DNA of 37,186 bases from Acidobacteriaceae bacterium (GTDB taxonomy: Bacteria > Acidobacteriota > Terriglobia > Terriglobales > Acidobacteriaceae), in assembly GCA_003152695.1 (NCBI GenBank), contig PMAT01000111.1:1141-38326 (forward strand), in the 5' to 3' direction. Positions 5,851 through 36,368 of the stretch are shown in pieces. The first letter of the stretch is position 1. Every line of letters begins with the position of its first letter. A program made the position numbers and the translations under genes. The notes under the pieces were generated by a model. That model saw nothing but the letters and a program-made list of their open reading frames with translations, was not told where the DNA came from and did not search any database.

Positions 5851-6585
5851 CTATTCGCTGCCCGCGGCAGGAGCGGCCGTGCTTTGCGCAATCTCTGGCT
5901 TGACCGCTGTCGCGCCTCGCACCGGGGGTTTCTGCTGATGCTTGCGTTGGGCCAGCTTCTTGCGGTTGTAATCGTTGATGACACGCGCCACGTAAGCATG
6001 GGTCTCGTGGTAGGGCGGCACGCCCTGGTACTGCTGGACGCGCTGCGGACCAGCATTGTACGCGGCCAGCGCTTTGATCATGTCGTTGTTGTAAAGCAGC
6101 AGAAGTTCGCGCAGGTAGCGCACTCCACCATCGACATTCTCCGCCGGATCGAAGCTGTTCTTCACCCCCAGCTTGCCGGCCGTGCCAGGCATAAGTTGCA
6201 TCAGTCCCTGCGCGCCTGTGCGCGAAACGGCGCGCGGATTGTTGCCGCTCTCGGCACGGATGACGCTGGCAATGAAGTCGGCATCCACCTCGCTGCGCGT
6301 GCTGGCTTCGCTGATGATGGCGCTTAAGTCCAGCGGCGTCTGCCCCCGCGATGTGGCCGCTTGCGGCTCGGGCGGCGCCGGCTCAAAGCTCTCGATCTGG
6401 GCGCTGGGCACGTCGATGTATCCACTGCCCGGTTCCGCGCTCATGTACAGGCGCGTAGTATCGCCGACCACGTCATGCCGCGCGTGGGGAATGCTGAAAC
6501 CGTTGCGCAAGTTGGCAATTTCGGCAGCGTGAAGCTGCGCCGTCATCAGCAAGCCCAGCAAGCCGAGTTGTAAGAGTTTACGCAT
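5851..6585 (-). CDS. Secreted lytic transglycosylase (SLT domain)
   Basis: A 244-residue periplasmic protein with a signal peptide (MRKLLQLGLLGLLMTAQLHA, cleaved before AEIA). The SLT/lysozyme-like domain spans about residues 95-215. The catalytic Glu sits in VIRAESGNNP, followed by SRTGAQGLMQLMPGTA and the AYNAGP motif, all diagnostic for family-1 (Slt70/MltC-like) transglycosylases that cleave peptidoglycan to 1,6-anhydro-muropeptides. The short pre-domain may bind the wall or a partner. Its start overlaps the end of the upstream HAD phosphatase gene by 8 bases (GTGAATGCGTAA contains both signals), so translation is probably coupled. The C-terminal tail is Ala/Pro-rich. Confidence 0.9.
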   Translation of the reverse strand: MRKLLQLGLLGLLMTAQLHAAEIANLRNGFSIPHARHDVVGDTTRLYMSAEPGSGYIDVPSAQIESFEPAPPEPQAATSRGQTPLDLSAIISEASTRSEVDADFIASVIRAESGNNPRAVSRTGAQGLMQLMPGTAGKLGVKNSFDPAENVDGGVRYLRELLLLYNNDMIKALAAYNAGPQRVQQYQGVPPYHETHAYVARVINDYNRKKLAQRKHQQKPPVRGATAVKPEIAQSTAAPAAGSE

Positions 6586-7438
6586 TCACGCTCGCAGTAT
6601 TAGCGTCGAGTACCTGTTCGATGGCCGCCGCCACTCCGCTTTGGTCGTTATGCAGGGTGATGGTCCAGCCATTCTGCTTCAGGTCGTCGGATGCATTTCC
6701 CATGATGACTGGATGGCCGGAGAAGGTCAACATCTCGATGTCATTGTAATTATCGCCGATGGCCATCACCTCGGAGCGATCGATGCCGCGATAGTTGGCC
6801 CAGCGCTCCAGCGCGTGCCCCTTCGAACAGCCCGCGTTGAGAATGTCAACGATGCACAAATTGCGCACATCATATTGCGTGCGCAGCATGGTGAACTCGC
6901 CGGCGAAATCGCAGGACAGGAGAGCTTGCTGTGCCTGCCGCATCAGTTCGACCGGGCCGCAGAACATGGCCTGGATGGGGTCTTCCGTCAGCGCCTTTGC
7001 AATGGGGCTGACATATTCGGTATAGGGCGCATTCTTCTCCATCCAGCGCTGGATGACCTCGTACAGACGCTCGCGATTTTCGCACACGATTGCCCCCATC
7101 CCTTCGCGGTCGAAGGTGAGCACCATGTGGTTGCGATACTCCGCCATGTGCCGGCAGAGCTTGATGGCCGTTTCCTTGGGCAGCAGGTCCTGGTGGAACA
7201 GTTCTCCGCGCGTGGAACGGGTCACCGCCCCATTCGAACTCATCAGCCACAGGTCAAAGCCCAGCGACTCCGCCATGGGCAAGGCGAAGCGGTGCCTGCG
7301 TCCCGTTACCAGCACGATTTCAATGCCGGCTTCATGGGCCCGGCGCAACGCCTTCAAATTGGCTTCAGGGACCTGGACACTGGAGTCCAGCAGGGTGCCA
7401 TCCAGATCGATGGCGATGAGGCGTATGGAGCGTGGCAC
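6578..7438 (-). CDS. HAD-superfamily hydrolase, Cof subfamily (IIB) phosphatase
   Basis: A 286-residue cytoplasmic phosphatase of the Cof/YidA type. Motif I is DLDGTLLDSS (nucleophile Asp near residue 11), motif II is in VLVTGRR, and motif IV is GDNYNDIEML followed by SGHPVIMGNAS. The type-IIB cap lies between motifs II and III. Members dephosphorylate sugar phosphates and flavin or other nucleotide phosphates with broad specificity, so no substrate can be assigned. Translation starts with GTG (7436-7438). It forms a two-gene unit with the transglycosylase. The heptamer array at 7451-7576 lies immediately upstream of its start. Confidence 0.88.
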   Translation of the reverse strand: MPRSIRLIAIDLDGTLLDSSVQVPEANLKALRRAHEAGIEIVLVTGRRHRFALPMAESLGFDLWLMSSNGAVTRSTRGELFHQDLLPKETAIKLCRHMAEYRNHMVLTFDREGMGAIVCENRERLYEVIQRWMEKNAPYTEYVSPIAKALTEDPIQAMFCGPVELMRQAQQALLSCDFAGEFTMLRTQYDVRNLCIVDILNAGCSKGHALERWANYRGIDRSEVMAIGDNYNDIEMLTFSGHPVIMGNASDDLKQNGWTITLHNDQSGVAAAIEQVLDANTASVNA

Positions 7439-7450
7439 GCGATAATTCTA

Positions 7451-7576
7451 ACAGCAGCCAGCAATGAGCACTTGGCAGTTAGCACTTAGCACTTGGTAAG
7501 GGCAGCCAAGTGCCAAGTGCTAAGTGCCAAATGCGGACTGGCTGGCTACTGATCGCTGGTTGCTGATTGCTTGCTT
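7451..7576. repeat. Heptamer tandem array arranged as a large inverted repeat
   Basis: Period-7 units such as AGCACTT and GGCAGTT on the left are answered by CAAGTGC, TAAGTGC and CAAATGC on the right, then drift into CTGGTTG and CTGATTG. The arms 7473-7496 and 7506-7529 are complementary over 24 bases with two mismatches around a 9-base loop. It lies in the divergent spacer between the HAD phosphatase and galT-like genes, so it could act on both transcripts. Confidence 0.8.
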
Positions 7577-7604
7577 CCCACCCCGAGACGTAAAGTAAAG
7601 AACG

Positions 7605-8594
7605 ATGGAATTACGCAAGGACCCCATTACGCGCTCCTGGGTCATTTGTGGCGACGAGCCCGAAGCGGCCGCCTCGCCTGACTCCTTCTGCCCCTTCTGC
7701 CCCGAATCTGGCCTGCCGCTGCAGGTGGTCGCCACCGCGCCGACCGTGAATGGCATTCCCTGGTCGGCGCGCGCCGTGGTCCATCCTCATCCCCTGTACG
7801 GAATCGATGGCGAGCCGTCACGCACGGGCAACGGTTTGTATGACAAGATGCGCCCGGTTGGCGCCCACGAAGTGATCGTCGAAAATGCCCGCCACGACCG
7901 CCATTTGTGGAACGCCGACGACCGCGAAATCGAGGAGTACCTGGCGCTCTGCGCCCAACGTATCCAGGACTTGAAGGGCGACGTCCGTTTCAAATACGTC
8001 AGCGTCTTCAAGAATTTCGGTCCGCAGTCGGGGCAGGAGTTTGACCATCCTACCTCGGAGGTCGTGGCTACCACGTTTGTTCCGCGGCGGGTCCTGTACG
8101 AGTTGCGGGCGGCGCGGCAACACTACCAGGTGAAGGAGCGCTGCGTCTTTTGCGACATTCTGCACCAGGAGCAGGAACAGAAGCTGCGCGTCATCGAGCT
8201 CCGCGGCGACTACATCGCCTGCTGTCCTTACGCTCCGCGGGTGCCCTACGAAACCTGGATTGCGCCCCACACCCACGAAGCCTACTTCGAGCGCATGGCG
8301 CTGAAGTCAGGAGCCATCCGCGACCTGGCGGCCCTGCTGCGGCGCACCCTGTACCGCATTCGCACCATCGCCGATGGCTTCCACATGGTGCTGCATACTT
8401 CGCCCAACACCATGCACCGCTCGGAGACGCTCGGGTTTTGGAAGACCATACAGGACGACTATCACTGGCACATCGAGATCTTGCCCATCCTCGGCGCCAA
8501 GGCAAAGTCCTACACCTTCAAGGAGGTGTACTACTCGCCCGTCAGCTCGGAGACGTCGGCGGCCATCCTGCGCGAGCGGCCGACCGAGCGGTAG
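7605..8594 (+). CDS. galT: GalT-like galactose-1-phosphate uridylyltransferase family protein with altered HPH motif
   Basis: A 329-residue member of the GalT branch of the HIT superfamily, whose known members transfer nucleotidyl groups between sugar phosphates. Seen: N-terminal RKDPITRSWVI, zinc-type CPFC (residues about 28-31), a second CVFC, LHTSP and the C-terminal-half YHWHIEILP. The nucleophile motif normally reads His-Pro-His-Ser/Gly-Gln, but here the DNA at about 8045-8060 reads Asp-His-Pro-Thr-Ser-Glu, so the second His and the Gln are gone. The length and all other motifs are intact, so the protein is folded and kept. Its activity may be altered, or it may use the C-terminal-half histidines. 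The function is therefore GalT-like rather than proven GalT. A small gene follows 41 bases downstream. Confidence 0.8.
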   Translation: MELRKDPITRSWVICGDEPEAAASPDSFCPFCPESGLPLQVVATAPTVNGIPWSARAVVHPHPLYGIDGEPSRTGNGLYDKMRPVGAHEVIVENARHDRHLWNADDREIEEYLALCAQRIQDLKGDVRFKYVSVFKNFGPQSGQEFDHPTSEVVATTFVPRRVLYELRAARQHYQVKERCVFCDILHQEQEQKLRVIELRGDYIACCPYAPRVPYETWIAPHTHEAYFERMALKSGAIRDLAALLRRTLYRIRTIADGFHMVLHTSPNTMHRSETLGFWKTIQDDYHWHIEILPILGAKAKSYTFKEVYYSPVSSETSAAILRERPTER

Positions 8595-12995: not shown

Positions 12996-13000
12996 GAAGC

Positions 13001-13060
13001 AGTTGCCAGTTGCCAGTTGCCAGTCGTCAGTAGTCAGTTGTTGGTAGTCAGCAGCCAGGT
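13001..13060. repeat. Heptamer tandem array between hemC and hemD
   Basis: About eight consecutive 7-base units: CAGTTGC three times, then CAGTCGT, CAGTAGT, CAGTTGT, TGGTAGT, CAGCAGC. The array begins 6 bases after the hemC stop codon. Confidence 0.9.
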
Positions 13061-13077: not shown

Positions 13078-13133
13078 GTCATCCTGAGCGGAGGCGGCGC
13101 TGGTTTTGCGACTCCGGAGTCGAAGGACCCCTA
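13078..13133. repeat. Dispersed palindromic repeat (GTCATCCTGAGCG...GTCGAAGGACC)
   Basis: The copy reads GTCATCCTGAGCGGAGGCGG, then after a few bases GACTCCGGAGTCGAAGGACC. It contains the perfect palindrome GACTCCGGAGTC. It sits inside the heme operon just after the heptamer array and just before hemD, so a folded RNA here could affect hemD expression. Confidence 0.75.
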
Positions 13134-17256: not shown

Positions 17257-17385
17257 GGAAAAAGCAGGTACCTGGACTCGTTGCCTTGCGACGTCGCTCG
17301 AGACGACGGTTCTAAAGATTATGTCAGCTATAGAGGTCCTTCGACTCCGGCGGCCAAAAAGCGGCCGCCTCCGCTCAGGACGACA
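17257..17385. repeat. Two dispersed palindromic repeats in opposite orientation
   Basis: The first copy (17257-17307) reads AAAAAGCAGG...CGCTCGAGACGAC. The second (17335-17385) reads GGTCCTTCGACTCCGGCGGC...GCCGCCTCCGCTCAGGACGAC and forms a hairpin through GGCGGCC/GCGGCCGCC. Both belong to the same intergenic family as 13078 and 25650. They fill the space between the small secreted-protein gene's start and the end of nth. Confidence 0.7.
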
Positions 17386-19236: not shown

Positions 19237-19258
19237 CAATCAGCAGTCAGCATTCAGC
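19237..19258. repeat. Short heptamer array after hemQ
   Basis: Three units, CAATCAG, CAGTCAG, CATTCAG, start at the base after the hemQ stop codon. Same unit type as the array at 19994. Confidence 0.6.
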
Positions 19259-19988: not shown

Positions 19989-19993
19989 AGAAG

Positions 19994-20078
19994 CAGTCAG
20001 CATTCAGCACTCAGCATTCAGCACTCAGCATTCAGCACTCTCGCTGGCTGAATACCGAATGCCAAGTGCCAAGTGCTT
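19994..20078. repeat. Heptamer tandem array between dedA and an SDR gene
   Basis: Units CAGTCAG, CATTCAG, CACTCAG, CATTCAG, CACTCAG, CATTCAG, CACTCTC run without a break (19994-20042). After a 20-base gap come two CAAGTGC units (20063-20076), the type seen in the right arm at 7506. The array fills nearly the whole space between the two convergent genes. Confidence 0.92.
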
Positions 20079-20080
20079 CT

Positions 20081-25472: not shown

Positions 25473-25507
25473 CAGTGGATAGTGGTTAGTGGATAGTGGC
25501 TAGTGGA
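25473..25507. repeat. Heptamer tandem array after the F420 reductase gene
   Basis: Five units: CAGTGGA, TAGTGGT, TAGTGGA, TAGTGGC, TAGTGGA. It starts 4 bases after the stop codon and is the clearest array of the TAGTGGN subclass. Confidence 0.9.
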
Positions 25508-25816
25508 GAAGCGGATACCGCTGTCCCTTAGGTCCCAGCGCAGGAAAAGACCCACCCAAGCACAAGAAGCTGGGGGGGGCACCCCGCTTGGCGGGCACCC
25601 GGCGGTGAGGAATTAAAACCCGATACCTTCTGACCTATCCAAGAATAGAGGTCCTTCGACTCCTCGCTACGCTCGTCGCTCAGGATGACAGCCGGGAAGA
25701 GTTTTTCATCCCTATAGGTGGGCCGCAGGCCCATGTGCCACTCAGGACGACAGGTGCGGAGGTTCGTGTTCGAAACTTGAAACTAGCCCTAGCCCCTAAG
25801 CCCCAGCCCCCGCTCC
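25508..25816. other. Non-coding stretch with palindromic repeats and a G8 run
   Basis: No gene is supported. It holds a GC-rich segment with eight consecutive G at 25572-25579, a dispersed repeat GTCCTTCGACTCC...CGCTCAGGATGAC (25650-25690), and an adjoining element with TTTTTCATCC, GGCCGCAGGCC and CTCAGGACGACAGG (25697-25753). The last is also recognisable next to the repeat at 33276. The region separates convergent genes. Confidence 0.65.
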
Positions 25817-33275: not shown

Positions 33276-33396
33276 GGGCCTTCGACTCCTCGTCCGGTCG
33301 CCACGACGGCCCGACTCGTCGCTCAGGATGACAGACTATTAAAGATTTTTCGTCCACCCATGAGTGCGGCAGGCCCATGCGACGCTCCGGATGGCA
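33276..33396. repeat. Dispersed palindromic repeat plus its companion element
   Basis: GGCCTTCGACTCCTCG...CGCTCAGGATGAC (33276-33333) is followed by TTTTTCGTCC...GCGGCAGGCCCATG...CTCCGGATGGCAG (33351-33396). The same two-part order is seen at 25650-25753, so the companion is probably part of one larger element. Confidence 0.65.
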
Positions 33397-33403
33397 GCAG
33401 AGA

Positions 33404-33445
33404 CCTGACCACTGGCAACTGACTACTGGCTACTGGCCACTCACT
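33404..33445. repeat. Heptamer array overlapping the 3' end of recX
   Basis: Units ACTGGCA, ACTGACT, ACTGGCT, ACTGGCC, ACTCACT. The complementary strand reads AGCCAGT, the CAGTAGC class. The stop and last codons of recX (Val-Ser-Gly-Gln-stop) lie inside the array. Confidence 0.85.
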
Positions 33446-34354: not shown

Positions 34355-36283
34355 CTAATACACCTTCCAGATGGTACCAAGGCCGTACTCCCCACAGCCT
34401 TTTGTTGTGCCATAGACGTTGCCGTTTGCGTCGACCGCCAAAGGACCAACTGACGAAAATGCCACATCGTTGCCGCTATACCAAAGTTCCTGGAAGCCGT
34501 TACCACCGGGCGGCCGCATCATCACTGCGCCCCAGACGTAATCATCAGGTGCAGGCGCACTGCAGGACCCACGTGGGCAAGGAGTAGCGTGATTTATGCT
34601 GAAATAGACGTCCCCCGTGGCGTCGATTGCCAGGGGTTCGATCCAGGTCTCGTCGTAACCTTCGTAAGGGTCCTGGAAGCTGTAAAGCACGCTATATGCC
34701 CAGTCCCCATTGGTGGGTGAGAGCATGAAAACCAGGTGGGAATACCAACCCTGGTCAAAGCCGTAGGCGACTCCGTAGAGGTTACCAGAGGCGTCTTGCA
34801 CAAGGCTTTGGGGGCCCTCGGTGAACTGTTGGCTTTGCCAATTTCCGGGGAAGCTGTAGATGTCCTGTTCTGTCCATCCATTCTCGGTCGGTACGAGCTG
34901 AAAAACGGCACCAAAGCCGTAGGCGCCGCCTCCGACACCGCCATACAAGTTACCGTCACTGCCGAACACCAGTGAGTAAGGACCAGAGTCGTTTCCAGTG
35001 AAGCTGTAGAGAACCTGCTCGGTCCAGCCGCCACCGGACGGCGTCAGTTTAAAGACCGCACCTGCAGTGGTTCCGTACAGATTGCCCGCCTCATCGGAGA
35101 CGAGCCTGTCGTTAGGATCCGATGTATCGTTGCCTCCGGCAAACTGGTAAAGCACATCTTCTATCCAGCTGCCCCCCATTGCCGTGCGGACGGCGTCCGC
35201 CGTGGGCCTCAACCTGTAAACCAAGCCGCAGTAGGAGCTTCCGTTGCTCCCGCAGTTCTGGATGCCTCCATTCGGCGTGTCACCGTAAAGCGCGCCCCCC
35301 GGGCCAACGATGACGGTCCCCGGCCCGGCTCCCTTTGAGCCTCCCGTGAAACTGTACAAGGGAGTGAACACCCAGTCTTGCCCTTTCGGCGAAAGCCTGT
35401 ACGCCATGCCCAAGCCATTGTTGCCGCCATTATTGCCTGTTCCGTAGAGGTTCCCAACTTTGTCAATGGTCACGCCATTCGGTAGCCATCCTACGAGATC
35501 CTGGGCCGTGAAGTCGTGGATGATCTGGAGACCTCCTCCCGATCCAAAGCAAGCCGGCGGCGGCGGGACGCTTGAGAGCGTGAACGATTCCCCGCCCAAT
35601 CCGCAATTCCCAAAGTTGGTGCCACTTTGCCGGAAGTTGCAAGTCGCGGGACCGCCGAGACCGCCATCCGGGATGTCCCACGCCGTGGATCCCGAGCTAG
35701 CGTTGTCGTTGGTATTACTAATGGAGACCCAGTACACTTGGCCTGCTGTCATGGCTCCAGAGTTGACGGGGACGGTAACGTCCCAAACGTCGTAACCGAA
35801 GGAGTTGTAGCCGAGTTTCACACACGTGGCACCAGGACACGATAGCGCATTGGTTCCGCTGCCGAGATGGGTGCCGAACTTCGAGTTGCCGAGTTTCACA
35901 CACGTAGCACTGGGGCACGATAGCGCATTGGTTCCGCTGCCGAGGTCGGTGCCGAACGCCGAGGTGCCCAGCTCATAGCTCATAGTCGTCGGCGTGTCCC
36001 CGGTGAATACCCACATAGCGAATTCTAAGGTGCCGGGGGTGCCGGAATTCGCCGCAATAAACCCGTTCGAAATGTCTTGGACAGACCCTAAGAAATTTGG
36101 GTTGTTGGGGCCGGTGGTATAGAACGCATTGTCGTTGCCATCAATCGGACCCTCGCTATAGATAACTTGTCCGAAGGCCGGAGCGCTCAACGCGAGACAC
36201 AGTAATGTCCCAACCACCAGAGTTACGCTTGTCACGCGCCCCAGCGCGCAAGGTATTCTGAAGAATCGCTGCTTCCTGTACAT
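34355..36283 (-). CDS. Secreted GloVer tandem-repeat protein
   Basis: About 642 residues. Signal peptide (VTLVVGTLLCLALSAPAFG, cleaved near QVIYS) preceded by a basic N-terminus. Residues about 25-230 form a beta-rich domain with Asn/Gly/Thr-rich text. From about 250 on there are many copies of the repeat YGTT-xx-GG-x-G-x-VF-x-L-x-P with WTE-x-VLYSFTG between, the GloVer pattern that forms a propeller-like surface. No C-terminal anchor was recognised. An internal 26-residue stretch (about 106-157) is duplicated in tandem. AAGGAGG lies 9 bases before the ATG at 36283. Members of this type are frequent in Acidobacteria; no function is established. Confidence 0.85.
   Translation of the reverse strand: MYRKQRFFRIPCALGRVTSVTLVVGTLLCLALSAPAFGQVIYSEGPIDGNDNAFYTTGPNNPNFLGSVQDISNGFIAANSGTPGTLEFAMWVFTGDTPTTMSYELGTSAFGTDLGSGTNALSCPSATCVKLGNSKFGTHLGSGTNALSCPGATCVKLGYNSFGYDVWDVTVPVNSGAMTAGQVYWVSISNTNDNASSGSTAWDIPDGGLGGPATCNFRQSGTNFGNCGLGGESFTLSSVPPPPACFGSGGGLQIIHDFTAQDLVGWLPNGVTIDKVGNLYGTGNNGGNNGLGMAYRLSPKGQDWVFTPLYSFTGGSKGAGPGTVIVGPGGALYGDTPNGGIQNCGSNGSSYCGLVYRLRPTADAVRTAMGGSWIEDVLYQFAGGNDTSDPNDRLVSDEAGNLYGTTAGAVFKLTPSGGGWTEQVLYSFTGNDSGPYSLVFGSDGNLYGGVGGGAYGFGAVFQLVPTENGWTEQDIYSFPGNWQSQQFTEGPQSLVQDASGNLYGVAYGFDQGWYSHLVFMLSPTNGDWAYSVLYSFQDPYEGYDETWIEPLAIDATGDVYFSINHATPCPRGSCSAPAPDDYVWGAVMMRPPGGNGFQELWYSGNDVAFSSVGPLAVDANGNVYGTTKGCGEYGLGTIWKVY
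35811..35966. repeat. 78-base tandem duplication inside the GloVer gene
   Basis: Two consecutive 78-base copies (35811-35888 and 35889-35966) with few differences encode the 26-residue unit ending SGTNALSCPxATCVKLG. Each copy has two Cys, so a disulphide per copy is possible. The frame is kept, and the high identity suggests recent duplication. Confidence 0.85.
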
Positions 36284-36368
36284 GGGCCTGGCCTCCTTGC
36301 CAGGTGGCTTGAAATGAACCGGAATTTCCGTTTTAGCTCCCAACGGCCAACCTAATTGCTAGTTGCTG

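Follow-up and report, generated by a model that had tools for sequence, protein, structure and literature searches.

The hairpin-like repeat at positions 7473-7529 of the window (the whole stretch of Acidobacteriaceae DNA that was analysed, 37,186 nucleotides) is real and is not a one-off. In gene gaps holding heptamer arrays of both orientations the arrays stand in one and the same order, with forward units near the left gene and reverse units near the right gene, regardless of the strands of these genes. We tentatively propose, with somewhat less than even confidence, that the two arms of such a pair were born together locally as a matched inverted pair which afterwards underwent 7-nt slippage, and that they have no role as RNA.

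The inverted repeat between the HAD and GalT-like genes

The repeat is located in the 166-nt spacer between two genes, and the features of this region are the following.

6578-7438, minus strand: Cof-type HAD-IIB hydrolase gene, divergent from the GalT-like gene
7445-7454, minus strand: ATTCTARCAG block, adjoining the HAD gene start and outside the main arm; conserved in 6/6 congener spacers (own included; G002 row of the alignment disregarded)
7468-7496, plus strand: left arm, AGCACTT/GGCAGTT-type heptamers in forward orientation, pointing into the gap
7497-7505, no strand: loop of 9 nt, TAAGGGCAG, common to the own genome and G002
7506-7534, minus strand: right arm, unit type as in the left arm, reverse orientation
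7587-7597, plus strand: GACGTARAGTA block, preceding the galT-like start codon and outside the arms; in 6/6 of the same spacers
7605-8594, plus strand: GalT-like (hexose-1-phosphate uridylyltransferase-like) gene; GalT models match below curated cut-offs

A preliminary description of this DNA had reported a 24-base inverted repeat with two mismatches and a 9-base loop between divergent genes. The repeat proved exact to the base (24-nt arms 7473-7496 and 7506-7529; TGGCAGTTAGCACTTAGCACTTGG vs the reverse complement of the right arm), and the genes are indeed divergent, the HAD gene being on the minus strand and the GalT-like gene on the plus strand. The extended arms 7468-7496 and 7506-7534 have three mismatches over 29 nt, with a weaker extension to 36 nt; degenerate forward units extend back from the left arm to ~7452 and degenerate reverse units run on from the right arm to ~7575. 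An inverted repeat this good (24-nt arms, at most two mismatches, loop of at most 60) was obtained in 0/2000 dinucleotide shuffles of the spacer, and repeats of equal quality are present at three loci in 814 kb of the genome to which the window belongs (the own genome), all of them intergenic heptamer arrays. The view that the repeat is a chance coincidence or an assembly artefact has nothing in its favour beyond the low complexity of the units, and we regard its probability as practically negligible. The shuffles argue against chance, as do the 36 two-arm gaps returned by the search for other opposed arrays that had been proposed as a check on coincidence. An assembly artefact is unlikely because the spacer comparison in relatives revealed same-type arms at this position in three separate assemblies (G002, G003 and G008).

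The repeat might, as expected earlier, fold in both transcripts. Both strands of the spacer fold well (z = -5.0 for the plus strand and -7.0 for the minus strand; 0/200 shuffles each), but either transcript may begin beyond the hairpin, because a sigma-70 scan of the spacer gave no promoter match, no intrinsic terminator (a G+C-rich stem followed by a T run) was found in 7380-7660, and the conserved blocks are located by the start codons outside the arms. These blocks might, at a guess, be promoters. The strong fold on both strands is a point in favour of an element selected at the RNA or DNA level (as a terminator, an insulator, a stabiliser of mRNA or a signal for translation) that acts from the hairpin or from single arms, a reading that we consider quite unlikely. 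The lack of a terminator-like site at this spacer argues against it, as does a search of Rfam 15, in which the 11 matches at E up to 1 were all to microRNA models and under the gathering score.

Ten named loci were found via the GalT-like protein, 8 in Acidobacteria assemblies and 2 in Omnitrophota (37% identity); several of the 8 Acidobacteria assemblies have 'palsa' or 'bog' in the isolate name.

Order of heptamer arrays in gene gaps

The own sample comprises 814,274 of the 4,504,025 bases of a genome in 141 contigs, window included, and the congener sample 363,276 bases of five congeners. Own contigs were chosen for matches in a heptamer search, which biases array density upwards; orientation was not a selection criterion. 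The stretches of G293, G148, G105, G014 and G281, and part of those of G181, were likewise chosen by heptamer pattern matches. Genes were called with a home-made codon-score finder, the start edges being less certain than the stop edges. Orientation was assigned by a 4-mer classifier trained on the edge arrays (those within a 25-nt limit of a gap edge) of the first 430 kb, which it fits by construction (36/36). This classifier replaced a simple AG rule, which had misread TTCGCTT units.

Oriented 7-nt arrays were detected in 107 of the 1031 gene gaps, the latter being all neighbouring gene pairs of the own genome (814 kb) and the congeners (363 kb). The order of forward (F) and reverse (R) arrays was FR in 33 gaps, FRR in 2, FFR in 1 and FF in 1, with F alone in 35, R alone in 35 and RF in 0. 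All gaps with both orientations (36/36) have the order -> <-, F before R; 14 of them lie in classifier-training DNA and 22 outside it, and the F arm of one (G006_C91:29865) is dubious. The other 71 of the 107 do not have both arms at the threshold used, faint partners seen by eye being left uncounted. The proposal that the units are inserted in either direction is not supported: relative to the gap their orientation is constant, with R preceding F in 0/37 gaps with several arrays and all 25 held-out edge arrays of the own genome pointing inward (25/25). Among the congeners 26/28 held-out edge arrays obey this inward rule, and the two exceptions are one that is reverse by eye (marginal score) and a 14-mer of a different kind. 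When the 25-nt limit was lifted, the nearest-edge rule was obeyed by 34/40 own, 34/37 congener and 40/44 training arrays.

Arrays called inside genes numbered 1/45, 3/43 and 0/37 in three sets. The median distance of arrays was 3 nt to the nearest stop codon (n = 63) and 15 nt to the nearest start codon (n = 58). They were found in every gene arrangement (++ 21/128, -- 21/174, +- 13/83, -+ 8/106), divergent gaps being somewhat depleted (8/106 vs 55/385, p = 0.07). Starts with an array within 12 nt have a Shine-Dalgarno-like match in 1/26 cases vs 259/799 for other ATG starts (own and congeners). GAAGCA is present near 13/54 stop codons with arrays vs 18/991 others, partly overlapping the first unit. 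For a selected element, the closeness to genes, the depletion between divergent genes and the paucity of Shine-Dalgarno-like matches at array starts are favourable observations; the presence of arrays in every gene arrangement is not, and the need for a hairpin does not account for FR without any RF.

The DNA outside the pair has a median length of 24.5 nt in two-arm gaps, and gaps without arrays have a median of 102 nt; for the four convergent two-arm gaps the median of the outside DNA was larger (165.5 vs 82). A polarity derived from the AG-rich or keto-rich strand was considered and rejected, since the bases of the F strand are close to balanced (keto 0.534) and G181 and G293 carry AGC-type units the other way round.

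The window contains the following further arrays.

13000-13051, plus strand: single forward array (CAGTTGC), 4 nt past the hemC stop codon
19992-20076, no strand: second opposed pair, AGCAYTC forward and GCCAAGTGCCAAGTGC reverse, between convergent genes
25474-25507, plus strand: single forward array (AGTGGAT), at the left gap edge
33405-33441, minus strand: reverse array (CAGT type), at the right gap edge, overlying the recX stop codon
33984-34022, plus strand: forward array (CAGTAGC), at the left gap edge, before the recX start

When lags 5-12 and 14 were compared, the window gave arrays only at lag 7 and its multiple 14, and in 430 kb of the own genome lag 7 gave 42 segments at the lowest threshold, vs 0-3 for lags 5, 6, 8, 9 and 10. 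The window also harbors a dispersed palindromic repeat, TCATCCTGAG...CGAAGGACC on either strand (13079-13129, 17335-17383, 25650-25688 and 33277-33331); gaps with this repeat also hold heptamer arrays. At 35810-35968 a 78-nt unit is present in two tandem copies (88% matches) within the open frame 34355-36343.

Likeness of the two arms

The argument that plain tandem slippage is insufficient for opposed arms stands, and both arms of one gap are alike. Their mean share of common 6-mers was 0.409, vs 0.151 (sd 0.034) for random pairing (0/20000 permutations, n = 36); the arms have no common 6-mer in 8/36 two-arm gaps. A vocabulary-free test of adjacent arrays gave 19 inverted, 2 direct and 4 unrelated pairs in the own genome (n = 25), 7, 1 and 2, respectively, in the congeners (n = 10), and 14, 1 and 6, respectively, in five more distant genomes (n = 21), where three of the 14 inverted calls rest on one common 6-mer. 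In G148, 5/8 array pairs have 7-13 common 6-mers in inverted and 0-1 in direct orientation, with several different units. Heptamer arrays of several units are present in 20/52 gaps of at least 20 nt in the stretches of G148 around pattern matches (L206-L210), mostly matched across the gap.

Likeness does not amount to identity. The own arms at 19989-20080 are alike but are no copies of each other (6-mer sharing 0.06), and in 43 comparisons at 21 loci, which are not independent of each other, the within-gap match beats the cross-species match 22 times, loses 18 times and ties three times. On this comparison the arms show no clear concerted evolution: continued copying between them should make the within-gap match the better one, and since it is not clearly so, the match between arms seems to date from birth. 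Ongoing conversion from arm to arm, which had been considered, is unsupported by the same counts. The hairpin copy step suggested earlier consequently survives in one respect: at birth it fits the matched arms, but continuing copying lacks support, so that hairpin copying would be at best an event at birth. The arms display no compensatory pattern, a further argument against a selected element.

Turnover of pairs among close relatives

The HAD/GalT-like spacer differs considerably between relatives. G002 has the own arms and loop, up to the point where its contig ends; in G003 and G008 the arms surround a ~60-nt centre instead of the 9-nt loop; in G006 a long reverse array predominates; and the spacers of G005 and G007 are short and free of arrays. 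G001, with ~1.8 kb between the HAD and GalT-like genes, was left out of this comparison. Since those of G003 and G008 flank a 60-nt centre, opposed arms probably existed before the loop became short, and the 9-nt loop is probably derived. Arms and centre thus turn over between species while the flanking blocks stay, which again is not what a selected element would lead one to expect.

The opposed pair at 19989-20080 is present in the own genome and in G002, whose right arm is much longer. At this place G006, G008 and, with a rearranged left flank, G003 show only the bare junction of the convergent genes, and in G005 that edge carries a forward array built of other units. Another own pair, C8:22712, whose 86-nt centre is unique, is missing from G006 and G008 and, judging from match coordinates, also from G005; G003 has different arms there. 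At the place of this pair G002 contains a 150-codon open frame (L166). At 19237 the own genome and G002 are one exact 7-nt unit apart.

Of 403 genome pairs, which are not independent of each other, 9 differed in both F and R, 26 only in F, 18 only in R and 350 in neither. Pair presence therefore changes quickly between close relatives, with gain and loss not safely separable; repeated gain or loss is possible because G005 has other units at 19989-20080 and G003 other arms at C8:22712. Slippage of single arms is indicated by the one-unit difference at 19237 and by the longer right arm of G002 at 19989-20080.

Spread and polarity in the phylum

A pattern of AGCAMTT repeats with at most two mismatches matched 9 of the 297 genomes sampled from the phylum, five of them in the same family (own genome included) and four in other families; the own genome has 74 matches. 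A control string (ACGATTM-like repeats) matches G222 (39 and 20), G198 and other genomes of family f23, which suggests that the f23 genomes have another heptamer vocabulary.

AGC-type edge arrays point inward in G281 (4/4) and G148 (3/3) and outward, opposite to the family of the window, in G181 (5/5; L173-L182) and G293 (4/4; L193-L205). On these counts, polarity is fixed within the sampled genomes but is not set by the unit itself.

Fixed polarity is what one would expect of a process resembling the healing of telomeres, in which both 3' ends at an intergenic break or gap receive repeats and the ends are then joined as -> <-. This process, which we deem very unlikely, predicts inward polarity on both sides regardless of gene strand, as observed, and also the joint presence or absence of both arms, which was partly observed. 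Against it, no enzyme was identified, a large set of templates would be required for the many unit types of one genome, and the AGC-type polarity is reversed in two lineages. Reverse transcriptase was found in 7/10 array genomes vs 2/10 genomes that were negative for one array pattern only; it was not found in G293, G327 and G254, all three of which bear arrays, and was rejected as array maker for this reason. In a similar vein, opposed arms could mark gaps rebuilt from both sides, with arrays laid 5' to 3' from the surviving gene edges and then joined. This too we hold to be highly improbable; if true, gap healing would generally leave the -> <- order behind as its scar, in several bacterial phyla and whatever the unit.

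Local birth or a dispersed element

According to the reading that we tentatively favour, the pairs would form a class of intergenic elements made up of two inverted heptamer arrays, one per gap edge, around a variable centre. Both arms would arise in one event as matched inverted counterparts, most likely when a slipped heptamer tract folds back and serves as its own template (a template switch within a hairpin while the gap is replicated or repaired), and each arm may then lengthen or shorten independently by slippage of 7-nt units. At the HAD/GalT-like locus the centre would have been lost, leaving the 9-nt loop behind. The pairs would be tolerated by-products of gap turnover, not working RNA elements. 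If random tracts were copied by folding back, RF should be as frequent as FR, yet only FR was observed, and the fixed polarity is left unaccounted for.

A serious rival, though in our judgement still an unlikely one, is a dispersed palindromic (MITE- or REP-like) element with heptamer arms that spreads and diverges by slippage, its polarity being that of the founder. REP/BIME and MITE elements are multi-copy intergenic inverted repeats whose members are copies of one sequence; by contrast, the loci described here differ in sequence and most of their centres are unique in the sampled DNA. The best other genomic match to the spacer is itself an opposed pair, at C122:65440-65520 (77% over query 22-96), which aligns over both arms and the loop and which was missed in the count of two-arm gaps, its right arm being under the threshold. 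This alignment is the best evidence for copying between loci. Together with the other units of G005 and the other arms of G003 mentioned above, it weakens local birth and strengthens the dispersed element. A polarity fixed per genome, outward in G181 and G293 and inward in G281 and G148, likewise fits a founder better than the chemistry of the unit, and the enrichment of GAAGCA at array stop codons is in line with such an element. Against it, the whole genome contains no near-identical second copy of the spacer, and 21 of the 27 centres of at least 20 nt are without a match elsewhere in the sampled DNA; the six with matches correspond to three orthologous places, two other dispersed repeats and one set of heptamer units. 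In addition, the own genome has 0 matches to Y1 (RAYT-type) transposases, which are present in 17/20 genomes searched, and at 19989-20080, where the flanks differ on both sides, no target-site duplication was seen by eye, which may also speak against such an element.

Relation to known repeats

STRR heptamers of cyanobacteria have a period of 7 nt and a patchy distribution, and slippage has been proposed for them. To our knowledge, opposed pairing is not a described feature either of these heptamers or of the long simple sequence repeats of Mrazek. The latter also have a 7-nt period and a patchy distribution attributed to slippage, as summarised in PMC4679880.

Arrays much like ours in placement are the mostly intergenic GGGAATC / GGGGA(C/T)T heptamer arrays that Rehm et al. 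(2015, PMC4692102) described in Xanthomonas and Nostoc. In the xanthomonads the closer of the two ORFs is the one 5' of the array (28 vs 160 nt on average, any strand), and the arrays mostly stand within 50 bp of it, either after a stop (coding strand) or before a start (non-coding strand); convergent pairs number 70 in Xcc and 75 in Xac, with only a few in Nostoc; arrays are fewer between divergent genes, and their length varies between species (PMC4692102). The units are G-rich and form quadruplexes in vitro, and effects of quadruplexes are discussed there, no function having been found (PMC4692102). The likeness extends to the 7-nt period, the intergenic position near the 5'-side gene on either strand and the convergent pairs. 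Unlike the Rehm units, most of those here (AGCACTT, CAGTTGC, AGTTTCG, TTCGCTT) have no G-tract, and there are many unit types in one genome here. A G-tract of at least three is not a property of every unit, being present only in CAGGGGT among the 45 commonest unit kinds. The present analysis also examines the matching of arms, their presence among congeners and the lineage-specific polarity.

TAACTGA direct repeats are known from marine Beggiatoaceae, Cyanobacteria and Bacteroidetes (MacGregor 2015, PMC4679880). These arrays are described there as located mostly shortly before start codons in one orientation, with a proposed translational role, and as mixed in orientation in a sample of Microcystis sets (PMC4679880). 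The reverse complement of TAACTGA has the same CAGT polarity as the arrays at left edges here, and the system has one fixed unit, unlike the many unit kinds reported above; CAGTTAT, the F form of TAACTGA, is absent from the 45 commonest of our 154 unit kinds.

According to a survey of sequence patterns (PMC4060949), which cites template switching as a source, inverted repeats are over-represented in most phyla. The quasi-palindromes considered there resemble the pairs here in that an imperfect inverted repeat becomes a better one, but they concern short inverted repeats of 6-9 bp and no heptamer arrays (PMC4060949). No opposed heptamer pairs in Acidobacteriota were found in the open-access literature searched, most subscription papers being outside its coverage.

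The placement grammar is therefore already known from Xanthomonas, and the units described here are of other kinds. A rule reported for quadruplex-forming repeats holds for units free of G-tracts, with several units per genome, which argues against quadruplex formation as the common cause. The thing to explain is then how such arrays arise or are passed on. Any mechanism is constrained by arms that match but show no clear concerted evolution and by a polarity that is reversed in two lineages, and the accumulation of heptamers in bacteria, an old question, becomes testable by comparing closely related genomes.
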